The position numbers and the translations under genes were made by a program. The notes under the pieces are model-generated. The model had not been told where the DNA came from. It worked only from the letters and a program-made list of their open reading frames with translations, and did no database searches. Positions 1-27,892 of a DNA stretch of 64,000 nucleotides are shown piece by piece (positions within the stretch are counted from its first letter, which is position 1; the number at the start of each line of letters is the position of its first letter). The stretch comes from Acidobacteriaceae bacterium (GTDB lineage Bacteria > Acidobacteriota > Terriglobia > Terriglobales > Acidobacteriaceae), in the NCBI GenBank assembly GCA_030041435.1, contig JASHNW010000089.1:1-64000 (forward strand), written 5' to 3'.

Positions 1-1319
<1,319 letters not shown>

Positions 1320-1413
1320 TCAGTCGGCGGGCTACGCAACATTGCGCCTTGGGCGCATTTCGTTTTCCCACCCTATCGCCAGACCGCGGCGACAAGGATG
1401 GGGCACCCGGCTT

Positions 1414-2403
1414 TTACCGTTTCCGGCCGGCTCCAAGCAGCATGAGCAGCAGAGCTTTTTGGGCGTGCATGCGGTTTTCGGCCTGATCGAAGACCACGGA
1501 CTGCGGGCCGTCGAGCACTGCGTCGGTCACTTCGGCGTTGCGATGCGCGGGCAGGCAGTGCAGGAAGACGGCCTTCGGCGACGCATAGGACATCAGCACC
1601 TCGTTCACCTGATACGGCTTGAAGATGGGTGCCCGCTTGGTGGCTTCGTGCTCGAAGCCCATGCTGGTGCAGACGTCGGTGTAGACGGCGTCGGCATCCT
1701 TAACGGCGGCCACCGGATCGTTGACGAGGGTGATGTTGGAGCCGGTGACGTTGGCGATGGCTCGCGCCTGGGCGACGATGTCGGCTTTGGGAGCGTAGTT
1801 CTTCGGCGTGCCGACGGCGCAGTGCGCGCCCAGCAGCGCGGCGGTGAGCATGAGCGAGTGGCAGACATTGTTGCCGTCGCCGACGTAAGTGAAGTTGAAT
1901 CCGTGCAGGCTGCCGAAGCGCTCCTGGAGGGTCATGAAATCGGCAATGGCCTGGCAGGGGTGTTCGAGATCGCTGAGCGCATTGACGACAGGGACGCTCG
2001 CATACTGGGCCATTTCGGTGATGGTCTCATGCGCGTAGGTGCGCAGCACGATGACCGAGACCCAGCGCTCGACGTTTCGGGCGATGTCGGCGAGAGATTC
2101 GCGCTCACCCAAGGGCGACTGCGTCTGATCGACAAAGACGGCAGCGCCGCCGAGAGTGTTCATGGCAGTTTCGAAGGTGAGGCGGGTGCGCAGCGAGGCC
2201 TTCTCAAAGAACATGACCATCTGCTTCGCGTCGAGGGCCCAGCGATAGGCGGCTGGATTGGCCTTGATGTCGTGGGCGAGCGCGAGGATGGCCGCCAGTT
2301 CGGTGGTGGTGAGGTCGGCGACCGAACAGAGGTCGCGGCCGGCCAGCGATTCATGCGGGCTGACGGGTTCGATTTCCTGAAGCAGGGCGGGTTTACCGGC
2401 CAA
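1414..2403 (-). CDS. argF: Ornithine carbamoyltransferase
   Basis: Transfers the carbamoyl group of carbamoyl phosphate to ornithine, giving citrulline. The 329-residue protein has the carbamoyl-phosphate site SLRTR at 70-74, HPCQ at 148-151, DVCTSMG at 243-249 and the HCLPAHR signature at 282-288, all in the expected order and spacing, at normal family length. The start is TTG at 2403. It overlaps the end of argD by 11 bp and has GGAGG eight bases upstream, inside argD, which suggests translational coupling. It is part of the ARG-box-controlled operon and nothing in the catalytic set is missing. Confidence 0.95.
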   Translation of the reverse strand: MAGKPALLQEIEPVSPHESLAGRDLCSVADLTTTELAAILALAHDIKANPAAYRWALDAKQMVMFFEKASLRTRLTFETAMNTLGGAAVFVDQTQSPLGERESLADIARNVERWVSVIVLRTYAHETITEMAQYASVPVVNALSDLEHPCQAIADFMTLQERFGSLHGFNFTYVGDGNNVCHSLMLTAALLGAHCAVGTPKNYAPKADIVAQARAIANVTGSNITLVNDPVAAVKDADAVYTDVCTSMGFEHEATKRAPIFKPYQVNEVLMSYASPKAVFLHCLPAHRNAEVTDAVLDGPQSVVFDQAENRMHAQKALLLMLLGAGRKR

Positions 2404-3649
2404 TGGTTTGTCCTCCTGAGGCGGGAGCGGCAGCGGTGGAGGCCAGTTGCTCGCTCAGAATGTTGTCCAGCGCGGCGATCGCTTCATCGACGTGCGCGCG
2501 TTCAAGAATGAAGGGCGGCAGAAAACGCAGAACGGTTTCGCTGGTGCGGTTGATGAGGATGCGGCGGTGCATCATCTCGGCGAGCACGTGTTTGGCCAGG
2601 TCGGCAGAGTCGAGCTCGACGGCCAGCATGAGGCCAAGGCCGCGCACATCCACGATTTCCGAGTGGTTCTTCGCCAGGTGTTCGAGTTGTTGGCGGAAAT
2701 ATGTGCCGACGGCGGTTACGTGATCCATGAGGCGGTCGCTCTCGATAGTGGAGAGGACGGCAAGCGCGACGGCGCAGGCCAGCGGACCGCCGCCGAAGGT
2801 GGTGCCGTGCATGCCGGCATGGATGGCGCGGGCGGCCTCATCGGTCGAGAGCATCGCGCCCAGGGGGATGCCGCCGGCGAGTGGCTTGGCCAGGGTCACC
2901 ACATCGGGCAGGATTCCGTAATGCTGGTAGGCGCAGAATTTGCCGGTGCGTCCCAGGCCGGACTGGATTTCGTCGGCGATGAGCAGGGCGCCGGTGGAGC
3001 GGGTGAGTTCGCGCGCCGTGTGCAGGAATTCCTGCAAAACCGGGCAAATGCCGCCCTCGCCCTGAATGACTTCGACCAGAATGGCGCAGACATCGCTGGA
3101 GAATTTTGCTTTCAGGTCCTCGACATCATTGAAGCGAACGAATTCGACGCCGGGCATGACGGGATCGAAGGGCTCGCGGTATTTGTCCTTCCAGGTGGCG
3201 GCGACCGCGCCCATGGTGCGGCCGTGGAAGCTGTTTTCGAGCGCGAGGAACGTAGTGCCGAGGGGCATGTCTTCGCTGCGCCTGAGCTTCGCGTACGCGC
3301 GCGCCAGCTTGAGGGCTGCTTCGTTGGCCTCAGTGCCGCTGTTGCAGAAAAAAACGCGGTCCATGCCGGTCGCTGCCGTGAGGCGATGCGCGACGGCGGC
3401 CTGGCCCTGGTGGAAGTAGAGATTCGAGATGTGGATGAGCTTGCGGCTCTGCTCGACAATGGCCTCTTCAATGGCGGGATGCGCGTAGCCGAGCGCGTTG
3501 ACGCCGATGCCGCTGAGCAGGTCGAGATAGCGATCGCCGTTTTCGTCCTTAAGATAGACGCCCGAGCCTTCTGTAAACAGAAGGGGGTATCGGTCGTAGG
3601 TGCCGAGCAACAACGTTGCTTCAGTGGCTTTGATTTCGTCGAGTTTCAT
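2393..3649 (-). CDS. argD: Acetylornithine aminotransferase (PLP-dependent)
   Basis: Class III aminotransferase that converts N-acetylglutamate semialdehyde to N-acetylornithine with glutamate as amino donor. The protein has 418 residues. [14 protein letters not shown] begins at 103, FHGRTMGA at 141, EVIQGEGG at 193 and [14 protein letters not shown] at 225. The PLP Schiff-base lysine is K255 in TLAKPLAGG, and [11 protein letters not shown] follows. The start is ATG with GGAGAGGA just upstream. Directly upstream of that ribosome site lies a run of five heptamers (3664-3698), so the leader is unusual. ArgD enzymes may also act on succinyl-diaminopimelate intermediates; the sequence cannot decide that. 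Confidence 0.93.
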
Positions 3650-3663
3650 TTCCTCTCCAGAAA

Positions 3664-3698
3664 GCGTTCAGCGTTCAGCGATCAGCGTTCAGCGTTCA
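3664..3698. repeat. Heptanucleotide tandem repeat, 5 units (GCGWTCA)
   Basis: Five perfect-length 7-bp units reading GCGTTCA or GCGATCA on the plus strand, lying between the four-helix-bundle gene and the ribosome site of argD. On the coding strand they read TGAACGC/TGATCGC. The same heptamer family occurs in the opposite orientation at 4091-4118, on the other side of the four-helix-bundle gene. Confidence 0.85.
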
Positions 3699-3716
3699 GA
3701 AAAACCGCCCTGTAGC

Positions 3717-4130
3717 TTATAGCTTCTGCATCATGGCCCAGAGCATTTTGCCCGATTCGTCGGCAAGCCTTTCAGCGTTGGCTATCTCGCCGGGATTGCC
3801 GAGCCCGAGTTCGCGAGCAATGACCAACTGGGCTTGCACTTCCAGGGCCGATCCCCGCGCCATGCCGGGGAAGTTGCGGTATTCGCCCTTCGAGCCTCGA
3901 CCGTAGCCCTCGGCAATGTTGCTCGCGATCGAAACGGAGGCGTGTCGCAACTGACTGGTGAGTCCAAAGATTTCTTCGCGCGGGAAAGCGCGGGTCAATT
4001 TGTATAGGGCAACAGTTAGCTCAATGGAACGCTGCCAGACCAGGAGCTCGCGATACGACTTTGCGAAATCCGCCGGAGTCGGGTTTTTCCTGATCGCTGA
4101 CCGCTGATCTCTGACGGCTGTCGTTGTCAT
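3717..4130 (-). CDS. Four-helix bundle protein (S23 / 23S rRNA intervening-sequence family)
   Basis: A 137-residue protein whose core (SYRELLVWQRSIELTVALYKL, REEIFGLTSQLRHASVSIASNIAEGYGR, SALEVQAQLVIA) matches the four-helix bundle family first known from ORFs in 23S rRNA intervening sequences. These proteins are small, oligomeric and of unclear role. The ATG at 4130 overlaps the argB stop as ATGA, so translation is coupled to argB. Residues 1-18 are encoded by a heptamer repeat tract and do not look like part of the fold. Its place between argB and argD is not part of the normal arginine pathway, and heptamer tracts of opposite orientation flank it, so it may be an inserted cassette. An arginine-related function is not implied. 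Confidence 0.82.
   Translation of the reverse strand: MTTTAVRDQRSAIRKNPTPADFAKSYRELLVWQRSIELTVALYKLTRAFPREEIFGLTSQLRHASVSIASNIAEGYGRGSKGEYRNFPGMARGSALEVQAQLVIARELGLGNPGEIANAERLADESGKMLWAMMQKL
4091..4118. repeat. Heptanucleotide tandem repeat, 4 units (TGAYCKC-like)
   Basis: Four 7-bp units, TGATCGC, TGACCGC, TGATCTC and TGACGGC on the plus strand. They are the inverted counterpart of the tract at 3664-3698. This tract lies inside the 5' end of the four-helix-bundle reading frame and encodes its DQRSAIR-type N-terminus. Confidence 0.8.
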
Positions 4131-4909
4131 GCCACCATGACCTCGGTGCCGTGGTTGACGCGGGTGCTGCAGAGGTCCGGCAGAAGCTCGGCCACCGTGG
4201 CGGGCAGGATGCGCACGCGTTTGACGCCGTTGAGGAGAGCTTCGCGGCAGGCGCTGAGTTTGGGCAGCATGCCGCCGGTGATGACTTCGTCGCGGGTGAG
4301 AGCGGCAATCTGGTCGATGGAGAGCCAGCGCATCACGCTGCCGTCGGCAGCCAGCACGCCGGGCACGTCGGTGAGGAAGACCAGGGCATCGGCCTTGCAG
4401 GCTCCGGCGCAGGCAGCGGCCATTTCGTCGGCGTTGATGTTGTAGTACTCGCCGTCGAAGCCGAGGGCGATGGAGGAAATGACGGGCACAGCGCCCATTT
4501 TCCAGATGGCTTCGAGCCAGCGCGGATCGGCGGAGACGATTTCGCCGACGAAGCCGAGGTCGGGAGCGGTCCGCTTCTTGCGCGCGCGGAAGACGAGACC
4601 GTCGCCGCCGGAGAGGCCGACTGCGGGCTGACCGTGCGCGCCGAGAGAGGCGACCAGGGCCTTGTTGACGCCGCCGCCGAGGACCATGAGCGCGGTGTCG
4701 CGGGTTTCGGCATCGGTGACGCGGAGGCCGGCGACAAACTCGCTCTGTTTGCCCAGCTGCTTCAGGGTGCGCGTGAGCTGCACTCCGCCGCCGTGCACGA
4801 CTGCGACCTGGCTGCCGTCCTTCACCAGTTCGGCGATGGCTTTGGCGCACAGATGCAGGAGCTCGGGATTCTCCAGCGTGGCGCCTCCGAGTTTGACGAC
4901 GTATCTCAT
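4127..4909 (-). CDS. argB: Acetylglutamate kinase
   Basis: Phosphorylates N-acetylglutamate with ATP, second step of arginine synthesis. The 260-residue amino acid kinase begins MRYVVKLGGATLEN, with the glycine-rich phosphate loop at its start, HGGG near residue 45 and the NINADEMAAACAGACKAD nucleotide/substrate segment further on. I chose the ATG at 4909 because GGGAAGG lies at proper distance; an in-frame TTG fifteen bases upstream sits within that ribosome site. The stop overlaps the start of the four-helix-bundle gene. Length is at the short end of the family and all core motifs are present. Confidence 0.93.
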   Translation of the reverse strand: MRYVVKLGGATLENPELLHLCAKAIAELVKDGSQVAVVHGGGVQLTRTLKQLGKQSEFVAGLRVTDAETRDTALMVLGGGVNKALVASLGAHGQPAVGLSGGDGLVFRARKKRTAPDLGFVGEIVSADPRWLEAIWKMGAVPVISSIALGFDGEYYNINADEMAAACAGACKADALVFLTDVPGVLAADGSVMRWLSIDQIAALTRDEVITGGMLPKLSACREALLNGVKRVRILPATVAELLPDLCSTRVNHGTEVMVA

Positions 4910-4978
4910 TTCAAACCTTCCCAACGCTTCCGTCCGGCGTGCGGCCGTAGTGTGTATTCCCGATTTCTGCCGGAAATC

Positions 4979-6154
4979 TCATAGCCCTTCCGCTTCCTTC
5001 AACCCCACCATCAGATTCAGGTTTTGCACCGCCTGACCGGCGGCGCCTTTGAGCAGGTTGTCGAGACAGGAGACGATCACGCATCGTCGTCCGTCGGCGG
5101 CGAGGTGAAACCCGATGTCGCAGTAATTGGTGTGAACCGAATACTGAATTTGGGGCAGCTGCCCGGCATGGAAAATGCGCACCAGGGGGCTCTCGGCGAA
5201 GTATCCGCGATAGAGAGCCTCGACTTCCGCGGCCTGGCGAGGCTGAGTGAACCAGACGTAGATGGTGGAGAGGATGCCGCGCGGAATGGGCAGCAGATGC
5301 GGCGTGAAGACGATCTGCTCCGCGGCAAGACCCAGCTGCTCGAGCAACTCGCCGGTGTGCCGGTGCGAGAAGAGGCCATAGGCGGAGAGATTATCGGCCG
5401 CGTGCATGAAGTGGGTCTTTGACGTGGGCGCTTTGCCGGCGCCGGAGACGCCGGATTTCGCGTCGCAGACGATGCCGCGGTCGAGGTCGATCCAGCCCGC
5501 AGAGACGAGCGGCTTGAGCGCGAGAATGACGGACGTGGCATAGCAGCCAGGGTTGGCGACGATTGCAGCATCGCGGATGGCGGCACGATGCAGCTCAGGC
5601 ATTCCGTACACGGCTTCGGTCTGGACGGCGGTCGCGGCGGGGGAGCCTTCATCGGCAAACTGATAGACGGCGCGATTGGCTGGGGAGTTCAGGCGCCAGG
5701 CGCCGCTGAGATCGATGACGCGGATACCGCGCTCGAGGGCAAGCGGCACCAGCTCGCGCGACTGCTCGTGCGGCGTGGCGAGAAAAAGAAATTCGACGCC
5801 GCGCGCCTTCAGCAGATCCCAGGAGAAGGGCTCGATTTTGAGACCGCCCGGGCCCATGCCGGTGCCGTTGTTGTCCATCAGCTGCGGATGGACGGCGGCC
5901 AGCGGCTCGGGCGCACCCTCGGGGCGTCCAAGGAAGAGCGGCGGCTTGCCCGCCAGGGCGGGGTGACGCAGGAGAAGCCGCGCCAGCTCCATGCCGGCGT
6001 AGCCGCTGACGCCGAGGACGGCGGTCTGCGCGGAACTCCTGTCAGGGCGCAGAGCGCGGGGCTCTTCGGCAGAGCTCGGAGCACAGGGCTCAGAGCTCAG
6101 GGGCGTCGATCCGGCCCCTGTTGCAACCATCGAATTTTTCTTCAGAGGGGACAT
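4979..6154 (-). CDS. argC: N-acetyl-gamma-glutamyl-phosphate reductase with odd N-terminal extension
   Basis: NADPH-dependent reduction of N-acetylglutamyl phosphate to the semialdehyde, third step of arginine synthesis. Of 391 residues, the Rossmann core starts only at about residue 44 (AVLGVSGYAGMELARLLLRHP). The catalytic cysteine is C204 in NPGCYAT, followed by AKSGVSGAGK. Residues 17-43 (Ser/Pro/Arg-rich) are encoded by a degenerate heptamer repeat at 6045-6099 and have no place in the usual fold. Start choice: ATG at 6154, the first in-frame ATG, with no strong ribosome site. A later start would have to lie within the repeat, so the extension may be real or translation may begin lower. 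Confidence 0.9.
   Translation of the reverse strand: MSPLKKNSMVATGAGSTPLSSEPCAPSSAEEPRALRPDRSSAQTAVLGVSGYAGMELARLLLRHPALAGKPPLFLGRPEGAPEPLAAVHPQLMDNNGTGMGPGGLKIEPFSWDLLKARGVEFLFLATPHEQSRELVPLALERGIRVIDLSGAWRLNSPANRAVYQFADEGSPAATAVQTEAVYGMPELHRAAIRDAAIVANPGCYATSVILALKPLVSAGWIDLDRGIVCDAKSGVSGAGKAPTSKTHFMHAADNLSAYGLFSHRHTGELLEQLGLAAEQIVFTPHLLPIPRGILSTIYVWFTQPRQAAEVEALYRGYFAESPLVRIFHAGQLPQIQYSVHTNYCDIGFHLAADGRRCVIVSCLDNLLKGAAGQAVQNLNLMVGLKEAEGL
6045..6099. repeat. Degenerate heptanucleotide repeat inside argC 5' end
   Basis: Units such as GGGCGCA, GAGCGCG, GGGCTCT, then GAGCTCG, GAGCACA, GGGCTCA, GAGCTCA keep a 7-bp register apart from one 6-bp step. They encode the non-conserved residues just before the ArgC Rossmann fold. 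GAGCACA here is the reverse complement of TGTGCTC in the tract at 6216-6250. Confidence 0.7.
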
Positions 6155-6215
6155 CTTTTTGCAAACCTTTTTGACTCAATTCACAGCGCATCGATTCAGG
6201 GTGCGCCGTATTTTC

Positions 6216-6250
6216 TGCGCTCTGTGCTCTGAGCCTTGTGCTCTGTTTTC
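6216..6250. repeat. Heptanucleotide tandem repeat, 5 units (TGNGCTC)
   Basis: TGCGCTC, TGTGCTC, TGAGCCT, TGTGCTC and TGTTTTC in continuous 7-bp register, filling the argR-argC junction up to the argR stop codon. The orientation is opposite to the related tract in argC. Confidence 0.75.
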
Positions 6251-6713
6251 ACCCGATCATTCGTTCGAGCTTTTCCCGCAGGGTCGAAGCACGCCGCAGG
6301 TCGGGGCAGATGATTAACACGGTGTCATCCCCGGCCAAAGTTCCCACCACGTCGCTCCACTGCTCGTGATCGATGGCCAGGGCGACGGGCTGCGCGCCGC
6401 CGCTGGTGGTGCGCAGCACGAGCTGGTTCTGCGCCTGTTTCACAGTGAGCCCGAAGCTGGCCAGCAGCTCGTCGACGGGCGGCTGGTCGTCATCTTCCAC
6501 GATATGGCCGTTGCCGTCAGGGATCGCGTAGCCGCGGGGGCCCTTGTAGAGCCGCAGCTCGTGAATATCGCGGGAGAGGGTGGCCTGGGTGACGTCGAAG
6601 CCACGGCGTACCAGCTTGCGGCGCAGCTCGTCCTGGCTGGTGACAGGCTCGGCCGCCACCAGCTCGCGAATGGTGCTGTGCCGTTCGTGTTTGCCGGGAA
6701 CGACTTTGCTCAA
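6249..6713 (-). CDS. argR: Arginine repressor ArgR/AhrC
   Basis: Hexameric arginine-responsive regulator of arginine genes. The 154 residues comprise an N-terminal winged helix (DELRRKLVRRGFDVTQATLSRDIHELRL, about 28-55) and a C-terminal oligomerisation/arginine-binding domain ending in GTLAGDDTVLIICPDL. Family length is normal. The start is TTG at 6713, with no clear ribosome site and a 13-bp hairpin only 11 bases upstream. It heads the operon and two ARG boxes sit on its own promoter, so autoregulation is very likely. There is no other in-frame ATG or GTG before the DNA-binding domain. Confidence 0.93.
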   Translation of the reverse strand: MSKVVPGKHERHSTIRELVAAEPVTSQDELRRKLVRRGFDVTQATLSRDIHELRLYKGPRGYAIPDGNGHIVEDDDQPPVDELLASFGLTVKQAQNQLVLRTTSGGAQPVALAIDHEQWSDVVGTLAGDDTVLIICPDLRRASTLREKLERMIG

Positions 6714-6723
6714 ACGAAAAATC

Positions 6724-6750
6724 GCGGCCAGCCGCCGGGCGGCTGGCCGC
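6724..6750 (-). promoter_or_regulatory. Perfect 13-bp hairpin in the argR leader, followed by a U run
   Basis: Arms 6724-6736 and 6738-6750 are perfect reverse complements around one central base, very GC-rich. Read in the argR direction, the hairpin is followed by GATTTTTCG and then the TTG start. It could be an intrinsic terminator/attenuator in the leader or a block on translation of argR. The sequence does not show an alternative antiterminator fold. Confidence 0.6.
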
Positions 6751-6757
6751 GCCTCTT

Positions 6758-6771
6758 TGTATAAAAATACA
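6758..6771 (-). promoter_or_regulatory. ARG box (downstream of pair)
   Basis: TGTATAAAAATACA, a near-perfect palindrome of the type bound by ArgR. Its centre is 21 bp from that of the second box, the spacing of tandem ARG boxes in E. coli. It covers the predicted transcription start of the argR operon. Confidence 0.85.
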
Positions 6772-6778
6772 CTAATAG

Positions 6779-6792
6779 TGTATAAATATACA
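6779..6792 (-). promoter_or_regulatory. ARG box overlapping the -10 element
   Basis: TGTATAAATATACA, a perfect 14-bp palindrome. It contains the predicted -10 of the argR operon promoter, so ArgR binding would block RNA polymerase. Confidence 0.88.
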
Positions 6793-6807
6793 GAGCTGAT
6801 TTGTCAA
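6779..6807 (-). promoter_or_regulatory. Promoter of the argR-CB-x-DFG operon
   Basis: On the minus strand, TTGACA (6802-6807) is followed after exactly 17 bp by TATACA (6779-6784). The spacing and -35 are consensus, and the -10 lies inside an ARG box. No other strong promoter is seen between this point and argG. Confidence 0.75.
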
Positions 6808-6923
6808 GGGCGAATTGCGCGGCGCGAACACCTCCGGCGGCCGCGTTTTCCTCCGCAAACCGCCGCAATTTCTTTCACAAAGCTTTCATTTTTGTCTTCG
6901 CCGGGAGAGGAAGGCCGTTATAG

Positions 6924-9900
6924 TTGGATATGGGAACGAGAAAAAGTGCTGCACCGGCCGCGTCGACCGGCGGCTCCCGCCCCAGCCTGATCGATTCACG
7001 TTTCGACCATGAGTCGTGCGGCGTAGGCTTTGTCGCTACCCTCGAGAACCGGCCATCGCATGACATATTGACGAAGGCGCTGACGGCTTTGTCGCGCCTG
7101 GCGCACCGCGGCGCGGTCGCGTCGGACGGAAAATCCAGCGACGGCATCGGCATCCATACCGCCATCCCCCGCGAATTGCTGCTGGCTTCGGCCGGCATTC
7201 GGCTCGATGCGGCGCAGATTCTGGCAGTGGGAATGGTGTTTCTGCCGGCGGATGGAGCGGCGGCCGACGTGGAAGTGGGGGCGCTGGAAGAGGCCATACT
7301 GGCGCAGGGCTTTACGGCTCTGGGCTGGCGCGACGTTCCTACGCGGCCGGAAATTCTGGGCGAGATTGCGCTTTCGACGCTGCCGGCGATCCGGCAAATT
7401 CTGCTCACCGGGCCGCACTCGGATTATCAGGATTGTGACCGCCGGCTGTACCTGGCGCGCAAGCAGTTCGAGCGCGCGGGCACGCAGGGCTATGTTTGTT
7501 CTCTGTCATCTTCTTCCATCATTTACAAGGCCATGTGCGATGCGCGTCTGCTGCCGGAGTTTTATCCGGATCTGGCCGATGTGCGCTATGTAACTCCGTT
7601 TGCACTCTTCCATCAGCGCTATGCCACCAACGTGGCGCCGTCGTGGGATCGCGCGCAGCCCTTCCGCGTGCTGGGCCACAACGGCGAGATCAACACCATC
7701 TGGGGCAATCGCGCGCGAATGACGGCACGGGCCGCCACGCTGCCGGATGAGCTGCGGCCGATCTTCACACCGAGCGGATCGGATTCGACGAGCCTGGACG
7801 AAGTGATCGAGTTGCTGGCGCGCAACGGGCGGACGGTGGCGGAAGCGGTGCGGATGGTGATGCCGCCGGCGGATACGGGCCGGCACTCGGCCTTTCTGGC
7901 GTATCAGGGAGACTGCATCGAGCCGTGGGATGGGCCGGCGGCGGTTTCCTTCACGGACGGGCACCTGATCGGCGCGGCGCTGGACCGCAACGGCCTGCGC
8001 CCGTGCCGATTCTTTGTCACCGAGGATCATCTGGTGGTGGCGGGATCGGAAGCCGGGCTGGTGGACCTGGATCCGGAAAAGATCGTGCACAGCGGACGGC
8101 TGGGACCGGGGCAGATGTTGCTGGCCGATCTGGAGCGGCACACGTTCTACGAGGACGACGAGCTGCAGACGCTGTTCGACAGGGCGGCGCCGGAATACGA
8201 AGCGCTGCTGGAGAATGCGACGCTGGAGGCGGACATGCCGGTGGCCGCTTTGGATGCGGCGGAACTGAATCGGCTGCATTTGGGATTCGGATACACCAAA
8301 GAAGACGTCAATATGGTTTTGAAGCCGATGGCGATGGAGGGCAAGGACGCCGTCTGGTCGATGGGCGACGACACGCCGATTGCGCCTCTGGCGCGGACGC
8401 CGCGGCCGGTCTACGCGTTTTTCCGGCAGCGCTTCGCGCAGGTGACGAACCCGCCCATCGACTCACTGCGCGAGGCGTGCGTGATTCAGCTGCACACGCG
8501 GCTGGGCCCGTGGCCGCACATCCTGGGCAAGCGCGAACGCTTGCCGGGACTGTCGCTGAGCTCGCCGTTTCTTTCCCTGGCGCAGATGGATGCGCTGCAC
8601 AGCCGGCACCACCAGCTGGCGGGGAACCTGGAACTGGCGGTGCTGGACTGCATCTTCGCGCCGGGCTGCAATCTGGTGACGGCCATTGACGATCTGTGCG
8701 AGAAGGCGGTGGAGCTGGTCCGCGGAGGGGCGGGAATCCTGCTGCTCACCGACCGCGGCTGCGGGGAGCACGCCATTCCTATCCCCATGGCTCTGGCTCT
8801 GGGAGCGGTGCACCATGGGCTGATTCGGAGGGGAGAGCGGGTGCGCGTCGGCCTGGCCGTGGAAGCGGGCGATTGCCGCGACCTGCATCACGCCGCCGTG
8901 CTGCTGGGCATGGGCGCGGGAGCGGTGTGCCCGTGGCTTGCGCTGGAGACGGCGCGGCAGCTCAATCCAGAGAACGGCGAAGCCAACCTGCTGCACGCCT
9001 TCGATCTCGGCTTGGCCAAGATCATGTCGAAGATGGGCATTTCCGTGGTGGACAGCTATCGCGGGGCGCATCTATTCGATTGCCTGGGGCTGAGCCAGGA
9101 TGTGGTGCAGCGCTGCTTCGAAGGAACGCCTGCACCCCTTGGAGGCGTTGGTTTCCCCGAGCTCGAAAATACTCTGCGCGAGCTGTGGCTGGGCGCGCAC
9201 AACGGCGGCGATGCCGGATCGGAGGGTCCGGAAGCAGGCGATGGCGGGCCCTTGGTCACGGTGACGGCGACAAAAGACCTTCCCGATTACGGGTGGGTGC
9301 GATTCCGCAAAGCAGAGAAGTCCGAGCCGCACGGATGGCAGCCGCAGACAGTTCGTCTGCTGCAGACCATTACAGGAGCGACGAAAGCAGCTGCGGCCGC
9401 GGCCGATCCTACCGTAGCGTGGGCTGCCTTCACCGGTCAGAGCACCGAGAAGGAACCGGCGGTACTGCGGGATCTGCTGGAGATGCGCGCGGCTGCGGAG
9501 CCGCTGGCGGTGAGCGAGGTCGAGCCGGCTTCGAACCTGTATCGGCGGTTCATCGCCAGCGCCATGTCGCTGGGCTCGCTGAGCCCGGAGGCGCACCAGA
9601 CCATTACCGCGGCGATGAACATGCTGGGCGGGCGATCGAATACCGGTGAGGGCGGGGAAGACCCCGCCGTGTACACGCCGGATGTGGACTTGCCGCTGGT
9701 GGGGGGAGCGGTCCCGTCGCACCTGCTGAACAACAAGGTGAAGCAGGTGGCCTCGGCGCGCTTCGGTGTGACGGCGAAGTACCTGATGCATGCGGAAGAG
9801 CTGGAGATCAAAATTGCGCAGGGCTCGAAGCCTGGCGAGGGCGGGCAGCTGCCGAGCCACAAGGTTACGGAATTGATAGCGCGACTGCGTCACGCGCAGC

Positions 9901-25939: not shown

Positions 25940-27892
<1,953 letters not shown>

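Follow-up and report, generated by a model that had tools for sequence, protein, structure and literature searches.

S23 cassettes form a widespread single-gene family with the same short repeat at both ends in opposite directions and a repeat spelling that changes with a protein residue

S23 cassettes are a widespread family of single genes that carry the same short repeat at both ends in opposite directions. The spelling of the repeat changes with a residue of the encoded protein, which suggests that the cassettes are mobile, invertible elements. The S23 gene found between argB and argD in the window, meaning the whole 64-kb stretch of DNA that was analysed, is in our judgement probably a copy of a minimal selfish single-gene cassette that recognises its own repeat arrays and is gained, lost and inverted.

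Results

An S23 gene between inverted heptamer arrays

The window gene (3717–4130, minus strand) encodes an S23 (23S_rRNA_IVP) four-helix-bundle protein of 137 aa that was identified by matches to the profiles PF05635 and TIGR02436. The match to PF05635, the sole Pfam family matched, had an E-value of 8.7e-33 and 113.2 bits compared with a curated cut-off of 33.8, and the NCBIfam match to TIGR02436 scored 108.6 bits at a cut-off of 24. The upstream host gene is argB (4127–4924, minus strand), the TGA of which is overlapped by the ATG of the S23 gene (ATGA). The next gene, downstream, is one that we take from its translation to be argD (2393–3649, minus strand).

A heptamer array was observed at either end of the gene. 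The downstream array (3663–3699), called by the tract detector, is composed of five AGCGTTC/AGCGATC units with AG on the plus strand, opposite to the gene. The upstream array (4090–4119) reads AGCCGTC AGAGATC AGCGGTC AGCGATC AG on the gene strand, that is four AGNNNTC units inverted with respect to the downstream array, and codes for part of the N-terminus of the S23 protein. It fell under the threshold of the tract detector and its unit borders were set by eye. Inverted alignment of the two 300-bp arms resulted in a score of 21.5, whereas none of 1000 mononucleotide shuffles scored above 14.0, and by this arm score criterion the S23 ORF does stand between terminal inverted repeats. A total of 5 period-7 tracts were detected in the window, whereas each of 20 order-2 Markov copies contained one at most. 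No Rfam family was matched in positions 1–8000 of the window, the site being between argB and argD and not in a 23S rRNA gene, and none of the PADLOC anti-phage defence families matched the window protein at E up to 1.

A sequence-only reading of this DNA had described the repeats, their opposite orientation and the overlap of start and stop, all of which, coordinates included, were right on re-examination. It had further stated that one array also encodes the N-terminus of the protein, which is borne out for part of it, and its proposal of a small cassette with repeat ends is supported. The heptamer-flanked S23 gene is a real and general observation.

Inverted arrays across the S23 family

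Six PF05635 genes are present in the genome of the window. Each is flanked by one or more period-7 arrays, the heptamer varying from copy to copy. An arm score of at least 15, the threshold for a match, was obtained for five, and L005 fell short with 14.0. The family was found in 47 of 61 genomes (that of the window and 60 relatives) at up to 11 copies. PF05635 was matched in 147 of 297 genomes of the window's phylum, 139 of them over the curated cut-off, and in 51 of 98 genomes of the cyanobacterial phylum, 46 of them over the same cut-off.

The sample of S23 loci covered the relatives, the wider phylum and 80 named contigs, which came from many bacterial phyla and two Methanophagales archaea. 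Among the named loci the closest belong to Acidobacteriaceae, on which grounds the phylum of the window is taken to be Acidobacteriota. Period-7 tracts were observed in 67 of 138 upstream and 68 of 136 downstream 300-bp flanks, compared with 4 of 133 and 2 of 129 stretches placed 1 kb away. Period 8 was found in 8 of 138 and 10 of 136 flanks and the other basic periods among 3–13 in at most 3, with period 14 also raised, as twice 7. Matching inverted arms were observed in 152 of the 200 S23 elements with full flanks, out of 211 distinct elements, as opposed to none of 183 control pairs; the arm match of the other 48 was below threshold. Cores less than 60 bases from a locus end, hits below 45 bits and identical cores (re-fetched elements) were left out of the 211-element set. 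As many PF05635 hits, above all weak ones, are outside the sample, the array frequency holds for the stronger hits. The named-contig set alone gave an inverted arm match in 47 of 71 cases and the held-out elements with full flanks in 44 of 62, the held-out set having been stripped of 37 of 74 and 3 of 31 candidates that had already been seen or were at least 80% identical to earlier elements. The only archaeal locus with full flanks had an arm score of 14.5, just below the threshold of 15. Arm matches were found in 97 of 132 pairs belonging to one element but in only 55 of 2640 pairs formed across elements.

One locus, L026 (G043:C31), is an exception to the inverted rule, with arrays of 295 and 205 bp in the same strand orientation on both sides. 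A single genome (G349) had 25 PF05635 hits, many of them to the later part of the profile only and some inside longer open frames. Phage carriage of S23 was rejected, since one query found no match in 50,697 phage records. Another S23 query matched 40 plasmid records, mostly cyanobacterial. On two plasmids of Calothrix brevissima NIES-22 (L396 and L397), S23 was seen in a similar block directly after a phage-integrase gene.

The AGN5 unit

The 158 phased seven-base arrays yielded the unit AGN5, with A at 91% and G at 97%. The unit phase was chosen on AG; in a phase-free check, AG was present in 141 of 158 units and the next dinucleotide in 91. The five variable positions carry 0.06–0.20 bits between elements but are 87–96% conserved inside an array. 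Three to five units were present per array in 124 of 158 arms, and AG was on the expected strand in 183 arms and on the other strand in 28. Between the arms of a single element, agreement was 4.36 of the 5 variable positions, versus 1.47 across elements (77 elements), meaning that the ends change together in an element and differ between elements. Period 8 was called in 21 of 179 arms, and units of 8 bp (for example AGGGGACT) instead of 7 bp were seen in L156, L168, L032, L141 and L091.

Covariation of residue 58 and unit base 3

Similarity of the proteins was related to similarity of their heptamers, albeit with a modest effect (Mantel r=0.18, maximum of 1000 permutations 0.065). The strongest association among 500 residue-base pairs was observed between core residue 58 and base 3 of the unit (z 12.8 with 100 permutations, 16.7 with 60). 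Residue 50 came second (z 11.8), and residues 74 (z 9.3), 78 (z 9.1) and 75 were associated with base 3 as well, z for these four residues spanning 8.7–11.8. Because only residue 58 was checked against the tree, part of the signal of the other residues may be ancestry. In the discovery set, Tyr58 occurred with G3 in 24 of 39 elements and Phe58 with T3 in 47 of 73, against 1 of 73 for Phe58 with G3. At 63% protein identity, L173 (Phe, AGTGACG) and L198 (Tyr, AGGGACG) have units that differ solely at base 3. Residue 58 was most strongly associated with base 3 (P=9e-13) and more weakly with bases 4–6 (P 4e-4 to 0.01).

The held-out elements numbered 65, all less than 80% identical to the discovery set, and 21 of these combined a phased array with Phe or Tyr. 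Tyr occurred with G in 4 of 5 and Phe with G in 2 of 16 (one-sided P=0.011), and Phe occurred with T in 11 of 16 and Tyr with T in 0 of 5 (P=0.012). Correlated evolution was evaluated on a tree built without the residue-58 column, which had 133 tips and 20 Phe/Tyr parsimony changes, and dependent evolution was favoured for both G3 (LR 46.6, P=1.8e-9) and T3 (LR 29.2, P=7e-6). The pattern was also found inside the window's phylum (Tyr with G 13/23, Phe with G 2/46). GC content was rejected as a confounder as the pattern stays in three GC classes. The window element itself has Tyr58 with C at base 3, a minority combination present in 7 of 44 Tyr elements. In the predicted model, residue 58 falls in the turn that joins helix 2 to helix 3.

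The covariation suggests that the S23 protein recognises its own heptamer repeats, although binding as such is inferred. The sequence-only reading would have been refuted by a gene fixed at its place with heptamers varying independently of it. This is not what is seen, as the heptamers follow the protein.

Gain, loss and inversion at S23 sites

The sequence-only reading had proposed a search for argB–argD junctions without the gene. This junction was readable in 10 of 12 genomes of the genus, G001 having no argB match and G011 a broken match, and the S23 gene was absent in 7 of the 10. It is present in G000 (the window's genome), G007 and G009. A clean short spacer is found in G002, G005, G006, G008 and G010, and heptamer repeats without an S23 gene are found in G004 and G003. 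The G004 array was called by the tract detector, and that of G003 consists of three units read by eye under the detector threshold. In G004 (L045) the array is followed by roughly 300 bp of unrelated filler in the place of S23, possibly reflecting gene replacement or decay. In three genomes from other genera the junction was likewise empty. At this site G007 and G009 have S23 proteins that are 61–64% identical to that of the window and come with another heptamer, so the site was either hit repeatedly or diverged fast.

The other five S23 sites of the window's genome are polymorphic too, judged by flank spacing, with occupied and empty calls read by eye from the spacings of hits. Flank spacings at site L002 were 463–631 bp in nine congeners against 976 bp in G000, with G007 (797 bp) unresolved. 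In alignments of this site, 4 of 5 congeners were clean, and in G009 the gene was missing but short inverted arrays of its family were retained. Spacings at site L005 were 615–737 bp in nine congeners against 976. For L005 and L001 the evidence consists of spacings and scores, not of alignment.

In-place inversion was observed in three cases. At site L003 the gene is on the minus strand in G000 and on the plus strand in G006, with proteins 72% identical, and G009 is oriented like G000. At site L001 the flanks are swapped in G000 relative to G010 and G005. The third case comes from two genomes of the cyanobacterial phylum (L400/L413), in which an identical core of 315 nt lies in opposite orientations at one site, with flanks 97.1% identical over 1302 positions on one side and 72.7% on the other. 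Transposition, considered for this pair because same-orientation flanks did not match, was rejected since the swapped flanks indicate inversion. A single orientation is kept in several other orthologous pairs (e.g. L401/L412, L236/L251). Ordinary recombination, or a template switch between inverted repeats, could have produced the inversions with no part played by S23.

No target-site duplication was found, the flanks of empty sites being too diverged for the junction to be defined. Two related copies within one genome (L221 and L225 in G253, 86% nucleotide identity) have unrelated flanks. The mobility proposed in the sequence-only reading is supported by the polymorphic sites but is still an inference, as no transposition event was observed and the enzyme that would move the cassette was not identified. 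Inversion in place, gene-less arrays of the resident families and the residue-58 code go beyond what that reading had proposed.

Gene-less arrays resembling resident units

In 464 kb of the window's genome, 27 period-7 arrays were detected compared with 3 in an order-3 Markov control. A second counter applied to the same 464 kb gave 24 for period 7 and 1–11 for the other periods from 5 to 12. Solo arrays were compared with resident S23 units using 14 of the 27 arrays, namely those more than 600 bp from S23 with a score of at least 11 and a clear AG phase; among these 14, two make up one split array and two one inverted pair. Twelve of the 14 agreed with a resident S23 unit in at least four of the five positions, or 10 of 14 with base 3 included, and 0 of 5000 random sets of six foreign elements equalled this match. 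In two solo arrays (AGCGGAT), base 3 is the mismatch in a fit of 4 of 5 positions to a resident unit.

One solo inverted pair, of the L004 family, lies between two apparent convergent gene ends, as judged by eye. Another gene-less inverted pair is at the start of argC, its left half (6073–6100) reading AGCTCGG AGCACAG GGCTCAG AGCTCAG and its right half located at 6215–6245; both halves were read by eye, the left one under the detector threshold. Congeners carry arrays of the argC-pair family nearby (L039–L041), and the arg cluster of G007 (L044) has two S23 cassettes of this heptamer family, one of them on the argC side of argB. A solo AGCTGGG/AGCCGGG array (26538–26615), of the heptamer family of L001, an S23 copy on contig C127, lies in the lysine-tRNA ligase gene. 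It is in frame within lysS, with NCBIfam matches on both sides, and adds a low-complexity insert to the protein. The interiors of two gene-less pairs are unlike the one cassette with which each was compared. These pairs thus do not look like deletion derivatives, and that origin was rejected on this basis.

Discussion

We are confident of the architecture of the cassettes and of the covariation, fairly confident that they are selfish, invertible elements subject to gain and loss, and uncertain of the mechanism that moves them. In the reading that we prefer, the cassette gene gives rise to an Avd-fold four-helix-bundle protein, a solved relative of which is pentameric, and the cassette ends in inverted arrays of about four AGN5 heptamers. 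Each S23 lineage would recognise its own heptamer, with base 3 partly read via residue 58 in the turn joining helices 2 and 3. With one sequence repeated on opposite strands at the two ends, S23 would be able to hold on to both of them in double-stranded DNA, in the manner of a transposon end-binding protein. One motif on both DNA strands fits recognition of double-stranded DNA, binding again being inferred. In this reading cassettes come and go and flip between their two arrays, with gene-less arrays building up in the same genome, and array binding may drive movement or inversion with an enzyme taken over from the host or a transposon. Both direct binding of the arrays by S23, as DNA, and a role of such binding in movement or inversion are inferences, whereas the architecture, the matching ends specific to each element, the covariation, presence and absence, in-place inversion and the resemblance of solo arrays to resident heptamers were observed. 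A broader proposal is possible but tentative: S23 may constitute a new class of mobile element in which an Avd-fold ring without a nuclease of its own reads AGN5 by a residue-base code and draws the inverted arrays together, host replication or recombination enzymes then invert, excise and reinsert the DNA, and rRNA intervening sequences and the heptamers of cyanobacteria and Beggiatoaceae are products.

The S23 intervening sequence of 23S rRNA described in PMC4990558 encodes S23p, has a 28-bp terminal stem that is cut by RNase III and carries tandem heptamers just upstream of the ORF. The cassettes could by extension be an RNA device, in which RNase III cuts a stem formed between the two arrays of the transcript, the S23 insert leaves the mRNA and insertion in an operon is tolerated, S23 perhaps binding array RNA. 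The RNA of the window cassette does have a predicted fold in which the arms are paired (z -2.67, 1 of 100 shuffles folding as well), and the Avd fold is present in the ribonucleoprotein structure of a diversity-generating retroelement, so binding of RNA or single-stranded DNA is not excluded. Mismatches between arms, however, comprised 88 G-U and 80 A-C, giving no G-U preference, and mirrored unit order between arms was found in 24 of 41 cases (one-sided P=0.08, not significant), which argues against selection for an RNA stem. This was not adopted as the main reading; with AGN5 on only one arm of the RNA and solo arrays existing without partners, we regard it as rather unlikely. A domesticated regulator that binds its own and other arrays, controls neighbouring genes and was spread by duplication and recombination, without being selfish, is improbable. 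Such a regulator would agree with the resident-family solo arrays beside and inside other genes and with the role in translational regulation that PMC4679880 proposes for TAACTGA heptamer arrays, but its presence is patchy, unlike that of a conserved regulon, and different heptamers are found in the several S23 copies of a genome, as well as in different congeners at a single site. It is scarcely credible that the arrays are merely slippage-prone satellites between which an ordinary gene was captured. Tandem arrays easily alter their length and unit and are found away from S23 genes too, yet they are rare in control stretches, arms match almost only within their own element, and base 3 follows residue 58 across the parsimony changes on the tree.

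The selfish movement that we propose is assigned to no particular enzyme, and neither a nuclease, a transposase nor an integrase is encoded in the cassette. Near the window gene, on contig C28, there was no Y1 match, the two in the genome being on contigs C106 and C50, and no match to RVT_1, of which there are four, on C52, C50, C27 and C94. Y1 transposases of the IS200/IS605 or RAYT type might move the cassettes in trans, S23 only marking or protecting the ends, and copy numbers of S23 and Y1 are indeed correlated across the 61 genomes (rho 0.56, P=3e-6). This correlation was not corrected for phylogeny, and genome size also correlates with S23 copy number in the same relatives (rho 0.43). 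As no Y1 was detected in 5 of 47 S23-bearing genomes, among them G037, which is 98% complete and has four S23 copies, such movement is unlikely. Dependence on reverse transcriptases was rejected in the absence of a correlation (rho 0.16, P=0.22), and no RVT_1 match was detected in 29 of the 47 S23-bearing relatives, meaning that no reverse transcriptase partner is needed there.

Similarities to known systems are partial. The model of the window S23 protein (pLDDT 93.2) is a four-helix bundle with TM 0.95 to 2gsc. It shares the fold of Avd of diversity-generating retroelements (4dwl, 8ub7; TM 0.78 at E 0.03 for 4dwl), a resemblance of PF05635 that has been noted (PMC10053308), but differs from such systems in lacking a cognate reverse transcriptase nearby. 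RAYT/REPIN (PMC3116915) is the nearest organisation to the S23 cassettes, with a single gene flanked by its own repeats, gene-less inverted pairs and co-evolution of protein and repeat. The requirement for gene-less repeat copies elsewhere is met and that for a Y1 HUH transposase between the repeats is not, S23 being an Avd-fold bundle without a Y1 nuclease and its repeats tandem heptamers as opposed to palindromes of 20–40 bp. In phase-variation invertons a segment flips between inverted repeats. S23 cassettes are alike in flipping between inverted repeats but have no recombinase gene, and their ends are short arrays.

The S23 intervening sequences of 23S rRNA are like the cassettes in having the same protein family and one ORF between terminal inverted repeats, and the heptamer GACAGAT of PMC4990558 contains AG, as do the cassette units. 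S23 ORFs have been reported from insertions in both 16S and 23S rRNA of CPR bacteria (PMC11270868). The cassettes sampled here differ in being located in operons and intergenic DNA: no rRNA was found at the Rfam gathering threshold in the 20 loci tested out of the 80 from named contigs, which rules out a 23S rRNA location for those 20. The passages of PMC4990558 considered here mention neither inverted AGN5 arrays at the two ends nor a protein-heptamer code or scattered solo arrays. The TAACTGA arrays of Beggiatoaceae and cyanobacteria are reported as direct repeats with one inverted set (PMC4679880), and on the opposite strand TAACTGA reads TCAGTTA, a fit to AGN5. The terms 23S rRNA, four helix and S23 do not occur in that text. 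No literature linking S23 genes in general to heptamer arrays, a cassette architecture or a code was found, with most subscription journals and all preprints outside the search. We consider 23S rRNA intervening sequences to be probably special cases of S23 cassettes.

There are 18 S23 genes reported in cas loci (PMC3936711), and S23 has been found beside CRISPR arrays (PMC10910872). S23 genes in cas loci may be inserted cassettes, which calls for caution in reading them as having a CRISPR function, although this is conjecture made without cas-locus data. To our knowledge, PF05635 has no established function. The present data offer it a testable one, the reading of a heptamer specific to each element, for which both the residue and the base can be named. 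The cassettes furthermore place three puzzles in one frame: the S23 intervening sequences of rRNA, the heptamer tracts of cyanobacteria and Beggiatoaceae, and the S23 genes found in operons.
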